64,000 nucleotides of DNA, taken from NCBI RefSeq assembly GCF_001879205.1, contig NZ_MLFK01000009.1, positions 558,001 through 622,000 of the forward strand, given 5' to 3'. Each line of letters begins with the position of its first letter. The stretch's first letter is position 1. The notes under the pieces are model-generated. The model did no database searches. It saw only the letters and a list, made by a program, of their open reading frames with translations, and was not told where the DNA came from. Made by a program: the position numbers and the translations under genes. This DNA is from Flavobacterium johnsoniae. GTDB taxonomy: Bacteria; Bacteroidota; Bacteroidia; Flavobacteriales; Flavobacteriaceae. Shown one piece after another: positions 9,834-52,880 of the stretch.

Positions 9834-9903
9834 TTTTTTAGATGCTAAAATAGTAAGGCAAGATGCTAAGAAACTAAAAACTTAGTCTAAGCATCTTAGC
9901 AAC

Positions 9904-48769: not shown

Positions 48770-48825
48770 AACTAAAAACTTAGTTAAATAACTATATTTA
48801 TAGTTGCGTAACTAAAAAAATAGTT
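48770..48825. promoter_or_regulatory. Three-operator array AACTA-N6-TAGTT with 20-bp period
   Basis: Exact copies of the inverted repeat AACTA-N6-TAGTT are at 48770-48785, 48790-48805 and 48810-48825, separated by 4 nt each (spacers AAAT and GCGT). The centre-to-centre distance is exactly 20 bp, about two helical turns, so all three would lie on one face of the DNA. The second copy covers the -33 TTG and the third lies between -33 and -7. This is a strong candidate operator for the BlaI-type repressor encoded next. Confidence 0.75.
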
Positions 48826-48834
48826 GTAGGTTTG
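48804..48834 (+). promoter_or_regulatory. Promoter TTG-N20-TAGGTTTG for the blaI-M56 operon
   Basis: TTG at 48804-48806 and TAGGTTTG at 48827-48834; the ATG at 48852 is 18 nt downstream. It is overlapped by operators 2 and 3. Confidence 0.7.
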
Positions 48835-48851: not shown

Positions 48852-49220
48852 ATGCAAAAGTTAACCAACAAAGAAGAAGAGATAATGCAGATTTTATGGA
48901 AACTTAAAAAAGCATTCGTAAAAGAAATTCAGGCAGAGATAACTGAAGACCAGCCGCATTATAACACGCTTTCGACAATTGTTCGAAATCTGGAGGAAAA
49001 AGGTTTTGTAGCGCATAACGCCTTTGGCAATACACATCAATATTATCCAATTGTTACCCTTGAAGCCTACAGCAAAAAATACATGAAAACGGCCATTGAT
49101 AATTATTTCAACAGCTCGTATAAGAATATGGTTTCGTTTTTTGCCAAAGAAGAAAAAATATCTGCGGCTGAATTAAGAGAAATCCTGGACATGATCGAGA
49201 ATCCTAAAGAAGAAAAATAA
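48852..49220 (+). CDS. BlaI/MecI-family repressor, copy 1
   Basis: A 122-residue winged-helix repressor: MQKLTNKEEEIMQILWKLKKAFVKEIQAEITEDQPHYNTLSTIVRNLEEKGFVAHNAFGNTHQYYPIV (DNA-binding domain) then a helical dimerisation end where M56 sensors cut BlaI-type proteins. It is separated by 5 nt from its M56 partner. It should bind the AACTA-N6-TAGTT array. It is almost identical to copy 2 (50833-51201). Confidence 0.9.
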   Translation: MQKLTNKEEEIMQILWKLKKAFVKEIQAEITEDQPHYNTLSTIVRNLEEKGFVAHNAFGNTHQYYPIVTLEAYSKKYMKTAIDNYFNSSYKNMVSFFAKEEKISAAELREILDMIENPKEEK

Positions 49221-49225
49221 TTGTT

Positions 49226-50806
49226 ATGGAAGCACTATTTATTTATATCGCAAAATCGGCCGGGTTGATTATTTTATTTTATTGTGCTTATTATTTTTTA
49301 CTTCGAAAAGAAACCTTTTTCAACAGTAACAGATGGTTTTTACTTATTGGTCTTATTACTTCCGTTGTTCTGCCGTTTGCAGTTTATAAAAAAGTGGTTT
49401 GGGTAAATCCGGATTTAGCTTCCAATTTAAGTTTAAGTCCAATTGAATCTCTTCAAAATTCTGAAAATAAATCTTTTGAAATCAATTGGTTCTACGTACT
49501 TCTTTCTATTTATATTATTGGACTTTTGGTTCTTTTGATAAAATTTGCCATGGATTTTTACAGTTTAAATTCGGTTTTAAAAGGAAAAAAGATCCAGCAG
49601 CAGGCCGACTTTAAATTTATCGATACAAACGAAAACATTGCTCCTTTTTCTTATTTTGAGTATATCGTATACAACTCATCAATGTATACGGCCTCTGAAT
49701 TAGAAAATATTATTGAACATGAAAAAGTACACAGCGACCAGAATCATACTGTAGATGTTTTAATTTCCCGTGCTTTTTGTATGCTTTTTTGGTTCAATCC
49801 GGTTGTCTGGCTTTACAAAAAAGCTATTGCCCAAAATTTAGAATTCATCGCAGACAAAGAAGCAGCTAAAAAATTATCTGACAAAAAAGCGTATCAATAC
49901 ACGCTTTTAAAAATAACAACACATGAAAGCTGTGTTGCCATTACCAATCATTTTTATCAATCATTAATCAAAAAACGAATTGTCATGTTAAACAAAAATC
50001 AATCAAAAAAGAGGAATCTAGTAAAGTATTGTGTTGTAGTTCCGGCACTAGCTGCATTTGTATTATTATTTCAAGTTGAAGTTATTGCAAAAGAAAAGCA
50101 GCAGAGTTTAAAAGAAGTTTCAGGCGACATTAAATCTGTACATGTTTACAAAATCAATAAAAATTCTACAGATGCAGAATTAAATTTAATCAAAGAGAAT
50201 TTAAAAAAAGATCATAATATTGATTTTGAAATCTCTGATGTAAAAAGAAATTCTGATAACAATTTAACGTCAATAAAAATTGATCTTAAAAATGGAAATC
50301 AGCAGGCACAATCTATTCAAACAGCCGGAGATCAAACAATCAAAGATTTTGGTATAATTGTTACAACACAAAAAGACGGTACTCAAAAAATTGGTATTCA
50401 GACTTCTGATGAAACAACTAATACCAAAACAGAAAAAAGCCCTAAAATCGTAACCAGCAAAAAACTAAAAACAAAAGTAAATACCAATGACAACACTTAT
50501 TCTAATGTTAGTACAAAAACTAATACTAATAGTGACACAAATATTAGCACTACTGTAACAGTAAATAGTGATAATAAAACAGTTACTGCAAATGGAGTTA
50601 CAATTTTAAAATCAAGCAAAACTAAAGTAAAAGCAGGTTCTCAGCTTATCATTGTTGACGGTACTGAAATGCCTGGTTCTTTTGATATTGAAGAGATTGA
50701 CCCTCGTGAAATAAAAAGCGTAAGTGTTTATACTGGTACTAACGCCGAAGCTAAATATGGTGATCGTGGTGCAAATGGTGTTATTGAAATCAAAACACGC
50801 GATTAA
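49226..50806 (+). CDS. M56 (BlaR1-type) membrane metalloprotease sensor, copy 1, with plug-like C-terminus
   Basis: The 526-residue protein has membrane helices near 5-22, 35-52, 90-108 and 265-285. The zinc site HEKVH is at 165-169, with the third ligand glutamate in EFIADKEA (about 206). Unlike BlaR1, no penicillin-binding domain follows. Instead there is a periplasmic region, a low-complexity Thr/Asn/Ser linker (about 400-460), then QLIIVDGTEMPGSFDIEEID... and GDRGANGVIEIKTRD, a TonB-dependent-receptor plug-like segment. It presumably cleaves BlaI on an unknown envelope signal. Confidence 0.85.
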   Translation: MEALFIYIAKSAGLIILFYCAYYFLLRKETFFNSNRWFLLIGLITSVVLPFAVYKKVVWVNPDLASNLSLSPIESLQNSENKSFEINWFYVLLSIYIIGLLVLLIKFAMDFYSLNSVLKGKKIQQQADFKFIDTNENIAPFSYFEYIVYNSSMYTASELENIIEHEKVHSDQNHTVDVLISRAFCMLFWFNPVVWLYKKAIAQNLEFIADKEAAKKLSDKKAYQYTLLKITTHESCVAITNHFYQSLIKKRIVMLNKNQSKKRNLVKYCVVVPALAAFVLLFQVEVIAKEKQQSLKEVSGDIKSVHVYKINKNSTDAELNLIKENLKKDHNIDFEISDVKRNSDNNLTSIKIDLKNGNQQAQSIQTAGDQTIKDFGIIVTTQKDGTQKIGIQTSDETTNTKTEKSPKIVTSKKLKTKVNTNDNTYSNVSTKTNTNSDTNISTTVTVNSDNKTVTANGVTILKSSKTKVKAGSQLIIVDGTEMPGSFDIEEIDPREIKSVSVYTGTNAEAKYGDRGANGVIEIKTRD

Positions 50807-50832
50807 CTGCCTTTAATCTAAAAACCAAAAAA

Positions 50833-51201
50833 ATGCAAAAACTAACCAATAAAGAAGAAGAAATAATGCACATTTTATGGAAGCTCAAAAAAGCTTTTGT
50901 AAAAGAAATTCAGGCAGAAATTACTGAAGACCAGCCGCATTATAACACACTTTCAACAATTGTTCGAAATCTGGAAGAAAAAGGTTTTGTGGCGCATAAT
51001 GCTTTTGGAAACACTTATCAATACTTTCCTGCTGTAAGCTTAGAAGCTTACAGCAAAAAGTATATGAATACAGCAATTGATAATTATTTCAACAGCTCTT
51101 ATAAAAATATGGTTTCATTTTTTGCCAAAGAGGAAAAAATCTCAGCAGCAGAATTACGCGAAATCCTGGCTATGATTGAAAATCCAATAGAAGCCAACTA
51201 A
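50833..51201 (+). CDS. BlaI/MecI-family repressor, copy 2
   Basis: A 122-residue close paralogue of the copy at 48852. It differs mainly at HILWK, NTYQYFPAVSLEAY and near the C-terminus (LAMIENPIEAN). It lies 26 nt after the first M56 gene, has no operator of the array type in front of it and is probably expressed from the same message. The second M56 gene starts 5 nt after its stop. Confidence 0.9.
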   Translation: MQKLTNKEEEIMHILWKLKKAFVKEIQAEITEDQPHYNTLSTIVRNLEEKGFVAHNAFGNTYQYFPAVSLEAYSKKYMNTAIDNYFNSSYKNMVSFFAKEEKISAAELREILAMIENPIEAN

Positions 51202-51206
51202 TCATT

Positions 51207-52880
51207 ATGGAAGCACTTTTCATTTTTATCATCAAATCAAGTGGTTTAATCGCTTTGTTCTATTTCGCTTACTTTTTTTTACTGCGAAAAGAAACTTTCT
51301 TCACCAGCAGCAGATGGTTTTTACTGGCTGGCTTAGTAACCTCGGTAATACTGCCTTTAGTTGTTTATACAAAAGTAATCTGGATTGATCCGGCTCCTGT
51401 TTCATATCTGCCGATGACAAACTATCATTATTTGCCAAATCATAAGCAGCATTTTACAACACCCGAAGAATCTTTGGAAATAAACTGGTACTTAGTTTCG
51501 CTCGCTGTTTACGCCCTTGGTTTTACTGCTTTTATGATAAAATTCGGAATCGATTTTTATAGTCTAAATTCCGTTTTAAAAGGAAAAAAAATAGAACAGC
51601 AGGCTGATTTCAAGTTTGTGGATGTAAATGAAAATATTGCGCCGTTTTCTTATTTTGATTATATCGTGTACAACTCATCAATGTACAGTGAAAAGGAATT
51701 AGAAAGCATTTTGGAGCATGAAAAAGTGCACAGCGACCAGCATCATACTATTGATGTGATAATTTCAAGAATCTTCTGTATTTTATTCTGGTTCAACCCA
51801 TTAATATGGCTGTATAAAAAAGCGATTCTTCAAAATCTGGAGTTCATCGCCGATAGCGAAGCTGCTAAAAAAATTTCAGACAAAAAAGCATATCAATACA
51901 CGCTTTTAAAAATCACAACACATGAAACTTGTGTTGCAATCACCAATCATTTTTATCAATCATTAATCAAAAAACGAATTGTCATGTTAAACAAAAATCA
52001 ATCAAAAAAAAGAAACTATTGGAAGTATTATGCTGTGCTTCCGGCATTGGTAACTTTTGTTCTTTTATTTCAAATAAAAACTATTGCACAAGAAAAAGAA
52101 AAGAAAGCTGCCCAGGAAGTTATTGAACCCGCTGATTCTGTTGATGTATTCAAAATCAAGAAAAGTACAACCGATCAGCAATTAAAAGAGATGGCCGGAA
52201 AGCTAAAGAAAAATCATGATGTTGATGTCGTGATATCTGATGTGAAAAGAAATTCAAAAGATGAATTAACAGCCATTAAAATTGATGTCAAAAAAGGAAA
52301 TGAGGAAAATCAAACCATTCAGATAGAAGGAAATAAAGCTATTAAAGACTGTGGTATTATAGTTTCTACCGCTGATAACGGTTCTAAAAAAATTGACATC
52401 GTTACCAATGGAGGAATTGACAAACCAATCGCGATTCAAAACCGTGTAGTACAGGTTAGAGAATTTAATAATCCTGATATGGCAGCGGCTCCAACTCCGC
52501 CTTCACCACCCGCAGTACCAGCACTAATTGATGCGCCTAAACCGCCGGTATGCCCTATTGATATGCCAAAAATGCCAAAGGCTCCGGTTATGCCAAAAAA
52601 TATGAAAAATAAAGTATCTATGGCAAAATTTGAAAAAGAAATGGAAGAGTTTGACAAAAAAATGGAAGCTTTACAACCAGAAATGGACAAGTACGACATA
52701 GCGATGGAAAAATTTGGAGAAGAAATGGATAAATACAGCGCGTATATCGACCAGCAATTAGGACCAGATTTCGAAAAGAAAATGGAACAATTTGAAAAGG
52801 AAATGAAAGTCTTTGAAAAAACGATGAAAGAACAAGAAAAACAAATGATGAAAATTGAAAAAGAGAATAAACGTTCGTAG
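51207..52880 (+). CDS. M56 (BlaR1-type) membrane metalloprotease sensor, copy 2, with coiled-coil C-terminus
   Basis: The 557-residue protein is homologous to copy 1 over about residues 1-380, with HEKVH at 171-175 and EFIADSEA near 212. The C-terminus differs: a proline-rich linker (APTPPSPPAVPALIDAPKPP, about 425-455) and a highly charged coiled coil of about 80 residues (EKEMEEFDKKMEALQPEMDK...). The plug-like end of copy 1 is absent. The pair therefore has one shared protease module and two different output ends. Confidence 0.85.
   Translation: MEALFIFIIKSSGLIALFYFAYFFLLRKETFFTSSRWFLLAGLVTSVILPLVVYTKVIWIDPAPVSYLPMTNYHYLPNHKQHFTTPEESLEINWYLVSLAVYALGFTAFMIKFGIDFYSLNSVLKGKKIEQQADFKFVDVNENIAPFSYFDYIVYNSSMYSEKELESILEHEKVHSDQHHTIDVIISRIFCILFWFNPLIWLYKKAILQNLEFIADSEAAKKISDKKAYQYTLLKITTHETCVAITNHFYQSLIKKRIVMLNKNQSKKRNYWKYYAVLPALVTFVLLFQIKTIAQEKEKKAAQEVIEPADSVDVFKIKKSTTDQQLKEMAGKLKKNHDVDVVISDVKRNSKDELTAIKIDVKKGNEENQTIQIEGNKAIKDCGIIVSTADNGSKKIDIVTNGGIDKPIAIQNRVVQVREFNNPDMAAAPTPPSPPAVPALIDAPKPPVCPIDMPKMPKAPVMPKNMKNKVSMAKFEKEMEEFDKKMEALQPEMDKYDIAMEKFGEEMDKYSAYIDQQLGPDFEKKMEQFEKEMKVFEKTMKEQEKQMMKIEKENKRS

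Follow-up and report, generated by a model that had tools for sequence, protein, structure and literature searches.

A 20-bp array of putative BlaI operators over a tandem blaI-M56 operon of Flavobacterium johnsoniae, and operator half-sites that go with the recognition helix

Three AACTA-N6-TAGTT dyads, set at exact 20-bp steps, lie across the promoter of a four-gene operon, blaI-M56-blaI-M56, in a stretch of 64,000 nucleotides of the Flavobacterium johnsoniae genome (the window), and they are very probably the autoregulatory operators at which the operon's own BlaI would block RNA polymerase. The three copies (operator 1, AACTAAAAACTTAGTT, 48770–48785; operator 2, AACTATATTTATAGTT, 48790–48805; operator 3, AACTAAAAAAATAGTT, 48810–48825) are all exact, as the initial annotation had read them, and the operon that it had assigned to them does lie downstream. 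In the window 0.13 exact copies are expected against the 3 observed, and three or more were found in none of 100 dinucleotide shuffles, while with two mismatches allowed the number of matches is unremarkable (79 vs 64.6 expected). In the whole genome (5.49 Mb) the exact pattern is found at five places, compared with 30 for the same pattern read backward. A further near-match in the window, with one mismatch at 9872, was judged not to be an operator because it is due to an inverted repeat located between two minus-strand genes at 9860–9897 (AAGATGCTAAG at 9860–9870 and CTAAGCATCTT at 9887–9897, read by eye, with a similar stretch at 9840).

The operon (48852–52880, plus strand) is a blaI-M56 pair duplicated in tandem under one promoter. 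The first gene, blaI-1 (48852–49220), encodes the presumed binder, a repressor of the Penicillinase_R family (PF03965, E 4.5e-30), and blaI-2 (50833–51201) encodes a protein identical to it in 112 of 122 residues; the two score 104.8 and 104.7 bits with a cut-off of 22.6. The BlaI-1 sequence aligns with MecI and BlaI, and a fold search with its AlphaFold model (mean pLDDT 78, lower in the C-terminal third) gave 13 PDB matches at E ≤ 0.001, 12 of them MecI/BlaI structures, including DNA complexes (1sax, 2d45, 1xsd), and one Rv1846c. The recognition helix, located in the model and by alignment with MecI at residues 37–49 (YNTLSTIVRNLEE; codons 48960–48998), is identical in the two paralogues, and both should therefore bind the same array; the 300 bp upstream of blaI-2 are devoid of an exact site. 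The two BlaR1-type M56 metalloproteases (49226–50806 and 51207–52880) are both above the PF05569 cut-off and carry the HExxH motif as HEKVH, at residues 165 and 171 respectively. Their C-terminal parts differ, being a TonB-plug-like domain in the first copy and a charged, coil-like tail in the second. BlaR1 has a penicillin-binding sensor, whereas Pfam (E ≤ 0.001) finds no penicillin-binding domain in either M56 protein, only M56 in both and a Plug domain in the first. At the position of the Asn-Phe bond that, according to the accessible text of PMC3305447, is cleaved in staphylococcal BlaI, the aligned BlaI reads Phe-Phe here.

Elsewhere in the same genome, the two exact sites that add to the three of the window are one upstream of a paralogous blaI at C13:29206 and one on contig C10, within an open frame of 1005 residues that we take to be rpoB. 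The blaI at C13:29206 is itself preceded by three dyads at 20-bp steps (TACTAATCTATTAGTT, AACTAACGAATTAGTT and TACTAATTAATTAGTA), and the exact 20-bp arrays of the genome are found only before these two blaI genes. No further 20-bp pair with fewer than two mismatches exists in the genome outside the two blaI places, and a search with up to three mismatches gave no sign of a wider regulon of 20-bp arrays (25 places vs 44 for the backward control, genome-wide); the array thus points to no target beyond its own operon. The genome also contains a third blaI operon, in the order lipoprotein, TPR protein, blaI and M56 (named by eye and by Pfam match), with TCTACATTTGTAGA and TCTATAATTGTAGA, 20 bp apart, directly before its first gene; one of these sites has the TACA-N2-TGTA core of the class G type described below. 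A PF03965 match at C9:100699 was read as ArsR-like from its sequence and was excluded from the survey.

Within Flavobacterium the array is a common feature of blaI operons. Two ACTA-N6-TAGT dyads with 0 to 26 bases between them are found in 57 of 81 Flavobacterium genomes, with 90 matches vs 30 backward-control matches in 24 genomes (counted by hand from the table). Related blaI-M56 operons, whose upstream regions the initial annotation had singled out as the place to look for the array, do carry it: at 28 of the 30 spaced-dyad loci fetched in the genus the step is 20 bp and a BlaI gene lies alongside, and at the remaining two (L016 and L036) the steps are 21 and 23 bp and BlaI is absent within 1.5 kb. 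Likewise, among named Flavobacterium loci, taken as the best 73 of at least 500 relatives and all closely related, 58 have the gene itself preceded by the array (all 8 letters of operator 3 kept, at most one change in operator 2 and at most two in operator 1), 14 are second tandem copies in operons whose first blaI has an exact 20-bp pair, and the one remaining, L369, has just one exact site, at –134, so that 72 of these 73 belong to array-headed operons. Averaged over alignment columns, identity among the 58 rows is 0.54 for the 19 bases ahead of the array, 0.82, 0.95 and 0.96 for operators 1, 2 and 3, and 0.92 for the stretch past the –7 element; since the rows were chosen by operator fit and identity remains high past –7, only the upstream boundary of the array is sharp. 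In operator 1 the right half-site, TAGTT, is well conserved among the relatives, the left half less so. One relative, L107 (G236:C43:197184–197277), has a run of five ACTA-N6-TAGT operators, all at 20-bp steps, 126 to 46 bases before a single blaI.

A survey anchored on BlaI genes rather than on the motif covered 163 distinct upstream regions of up to 300 bp, drawn from Pfam-ranked lists among the matches listed (own genome, top loci and next 60), with 40 of the genus genes picked by hand (20 low-scoring and 20 higher-scoring). It contains 205 sites in total, compared with a mean of 1.7 and a maximum of 7 in 200 shuffles preserving base composition only, and with a single one in the genes' own first 300 bp; the backward control matched in 1 of 73 upstreams of the genus and in 0 of 90 of other genera. 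In the genus, 38 of the 73 upstreams have at least two sites, 4 have one and 31 have none, the latter comprising 20 genes of other helix classes and 11 of class A (see below), whereas in the other genera 38 of 90 lack an exact ACTA-N6-TAGT (27 of other helix classes, 1 unclassed and 10 of class A). The precise 20-bp period of the initial annotation is the rule within the genus, where it holds for 54 of 55 steps (the other being 40 bp), but it does not extend to the other genera of the class that were examined, in which it is seen in only 24 of 56 and steps of 18, 28–34 and 47 bp make up most of the rest. In family f2, of the same order, the step between the two exact sites is 47 bp rather than 20 (L239, L240, L241, L248, L251, L179, L187 and L191). 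The spaced-dyad search of the phylum matched in 79 of 395 genomes, with backward-control matches in many genomes too; among 27 further loci, 24 have a BlaI gene no more than 1.5 kb away, their steps being 20 but also 18, 24, 29, 31 and others, and three (L077, L085 and L090) have none at that distance, L090 reading as one large palindrome. At L077 (G204:C45:320993) a 20-bp pair heads an ABC-transporter permease gene (named by eye), and a blaI (L176, G204:C45:323607) lies 2.6 kb downstream on the same strand; the permease is possibly an effector gene inside a BlaI operon.

The BlaI genes that have no ACTA sites carry dyads with other half-sites, and these go with the recognition helix. Five helix classes, defined by residues 38, 41, 42 and 45, were tied to five motifs, classes and motifs being derived from the same training data: ACTA-N6-TAGT in 90 of 111 class A genes (the other 21 being without the motif within 300 bp), AACTG-N6-A[AC]GTT, searched in both orientations, in 5 of 5 of class D, ACGA-N5-TCGT in 7 of 9 of class E, ACGA-N6-TCGT in 7 of 9 of class F and CTACA-N2-TGTAG in 12 of 25 of class G (12 of the 25 being listed without the motif within 300 bp). 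Some of the motif-less genes of classes A and G are not the first of their operon; among the 159 classed genes there is one cross-match, and 4 genes are unclassed. The rule was frozen in writing before its application to 60 further BlaI genes. These are the remaining rows of one of the ranked lists; they share their 74 genomes with part of the training set, and many are orthologues of training genes. Of the 54 hold-out genes that could be classed, 48 have the motif of their own class (12/15, 1/1, 7/8, 15/16 and 13/14 for A, D, E, F and G), compared with 12.5 on average and at most 25 in 10,000 label shuffles, which do not take out relatedness. The sites of six class A hold-out rows (L242, L243, L253, L254, L273 and L277) had been seen before the freeze, and without them the result is 42 of 48 overall and 6 of 9 in class A. 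One hold-out gene (L265) also has the motif of another class, at an overlapping site, and the six unclassed genes outside the 54 have ACTA-N6-TAGT (2) or CTACA-N2-TGTAG (4). The three class A misses (L279, L289 and L293) resemble ACTA-N7-TAGT by eye and were left uncounted; these three and L177 share the helix H[YF]NTLSTIVR[GSV] and dyads that look one base wider.

The success of the helix class in predicting the motif of the hold-out genes argues that BlaI itself is likely the binder. The same correspondence is seen among the paralogues of single genomes, which contain up to four classes: in G268 all five BlaI have the motif of their own class (L151 and L243, A; L174, D; L255, F; L263, G), and so does each of the six BlaI fetched of the seven in G455 (L120, L150 and L159, A; L167, D; L271, E; L149, F). 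Comparison with relatives suggests that different docking sequences go with small changes of the recognition helix, which would let one cell run several of these switches side by side. With moderate confidence, a code can be proposed for the class of Bacteroidota concerned, in which the dyad frame is near-constant and residues 38 and 42, with 41 and 45, would set the half-site: Asn/Thr would correspond to ACTA, Asn/Ser to AACTG or AACTT, Thr/Ser and Leu41-Lys42 to ACGA, and Thr/Thr with Lys45 to CTACA. Such a code would in turn keep the paralogous BlaI-M56 switches of one cell insulated from one another. The association of five operator types with five helix types is a prediction that short probes and point mutations can test, and it offers a route to the operators, and hence to the regulons, of further BlaI-M56 systems.

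The array is in fixed register with promoter-like elements. The promoter consensus reads TTG ... TAnnTTTG, and in the window a putative –33 element TTG (48804–48806, plus strand) overlaps the end of operator 2, while operator 3 occupies the spacer up to a putative –7 element TAGGTTTG (TAnnTTTG, 48827–48834, plus strand), from which a single base (48826) separates it; both placements had been pointed out in the initial annotation and are borne out. When 36 distinct genus upstreams, preselected for two exact dyads at 20 bp, are aligned on the last operator, T-T-G is found at the end of operator 2 (G in 72%) and a TAnnTTTG-like element begins two bases past the last T of the TAGT of operator 3. 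The –7 element also follows operator 3 in 58 of 58 array loci (those from the best 73 of at least 500 relatives). In class A, 37 of 102 upstreams with an operator have TAnnTTTG at exactly 16 bases from the A of ACTA, in class D 5 of 6 have it 17 bases past the beginning of AACTG, and in classes E and F it is found in exact form near the operator in 5 of 14 and 9 of 22, respectively. In class G it is contained within the operator itself (25 of 25 upstreams, 27 of 34 sites), for example in TCTACATTTGTAGA, which includes TACATTTG. Because of this fixed register, occlusion of RNA polymerase would be the simplest mechanism of repression. Each 16-bp dyad would take one BlaI dimer, the winged helices of which would read the ACTA and TAGT half-sites, and three neighbouring dimers would mask the –33 element together with the spacer and the margin of –7, so that the polymerase would be excluded and the operon negatively autoregulated. 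Induction would follow once an envelope signal is sensed by the operon's M56 protease and BlaI is cleaved or released.

How the 20-bp step should be read is a separate question. The initial annotation took it as two helical turns that would place the dimers on one face of the DNA. B-DNA has 10.5 bp per turn, and 20 bp is thus about 1.9 turns, with successive dimers turned by about 34 degrees; the dimers would be nearly, but only nearly, on one face. The cooperativity that such phasing would allow is a fair guess and the sharp switch that it would produce is conjectural, since steps of 19, 24/25 and 27 bp prevail in classes E, F and G, respectively. The alternative, to which we give somewhat less than an even chance, is that the step has no cooperative meaning and reflects the tightest arrangement possible for independent dimers alongside the promoter elements. 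The variety of spacings agrees with it, as the other helix classes have the steps just mentioned or a lone site, while the steps of class A in other genera are 17, 18, 24–34 and 47 bp, and the promoter register by itself could fix operators 2 and 3. It accounts less well for the near-invariance of the step in the genus (54 of 55), for operator 1, which keeps the same step upstream of the promoter elements, and for the five operators of L107, all at 20 bp.

Other readings question the binder or the binding unit. That another regulator occupies the array might be supposed from operator letters unlike the textbook TACA/TGTA, but the motif co-varies with the BlaI recognition helix in five classes, also among paralogues of one genome, and this explanation is very improbable. 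Since the half-sites alternate in a 20-bp array, a TAGTT-N4-AACTA dyad can be read between the operators as well, and it could in principle be the binding unit; arrays with steps of 17, 18, 24 and 47 bp, however, lose the N4 distance and retain ACTA-N6-TAGT, and lone dyads of the N6 type precede several BlaI genes, which makes this choice highly unlikely. The repeats, being palindromic, rich in A-tracts in their cores and near-helical in spacing, could also act in RNA, as a hairpin or terminator, or bend the DNA by their sequence without any protein. This is the least probable of the readings considered: other classes place TACGA or TCTACA dyads at the same position, and transcripts from this promoter should not include the array, which precedes the –7-like element.

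Among the open-access matches listed, judged by title and abstract, none deals with Bacteroidota BlaI operators or with the relation of helix to half-site, and the terms sought do not occur in PMC9723704 (the F. psychrophilum transcript map) or PMC8265638. As far as these searches go, helix-linked diversification of operators within one class is new; the finding is otherwise kin to known BlaI operators, with a three-operator layout found across Flavobacterium. The systems of Staphylococcus and Bacillus have in common with it the BlaI-MecI repressor family, the fold, an operon with an M56 protease and several operators, three of them (OP1–OP3) for B. licheniformis BlaI, whereas a beta-lactamase gene is under control there (PMC3305447, in the text available). 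Their operators have TACA/TGTA half-sites, unlike the window array (PMC7253601). The initial annotation had drawn the same distinction, and it stands for the letters, the window operators being without the TACA-N2-TGTA core; it does not stand for the architecture, as the 16-bp frame is the same and a paralogue in the same genome is of the TACA type.

The frame is also that of the CopY/CopR cop operator, the 16-base consensus of which is given as RNYKACANNTGTMRNY in PMC7253601. AACTA-N6-TAGTT shares its 16-bp frame and agrees with the outer RNYKA...TMRNY, while the inner CA/TG is missing from the window array, and the genome's own class G operator has it; CopY senses copper, whereas the operon here comes with an M56 protease. 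A likeness in layout is also seen to Clostridium thermocellum, where, according to PMC8457756, DAP-seq, EMSA and motif scanning have revealed BlaI proteins that bind upstream of their own operons, at half-sites of the GACTAT and GTCTAT types arranged in ordered pairs. The differences are that two pairs are present there vs three dyads here, that the inverted repeats of BlaI_0696 are 5 nt apart, one base wider than the frame here, and that the phylum is another one. BlaI_0696 and BlaI_1845 are autoregulatory, with ordered sets of inverted repeats (four protomers) and very small regulons, and their half-sites GTCTAT/GACTAT share CTA with the AACTA of the Flavobacterium array (PMC8457756).
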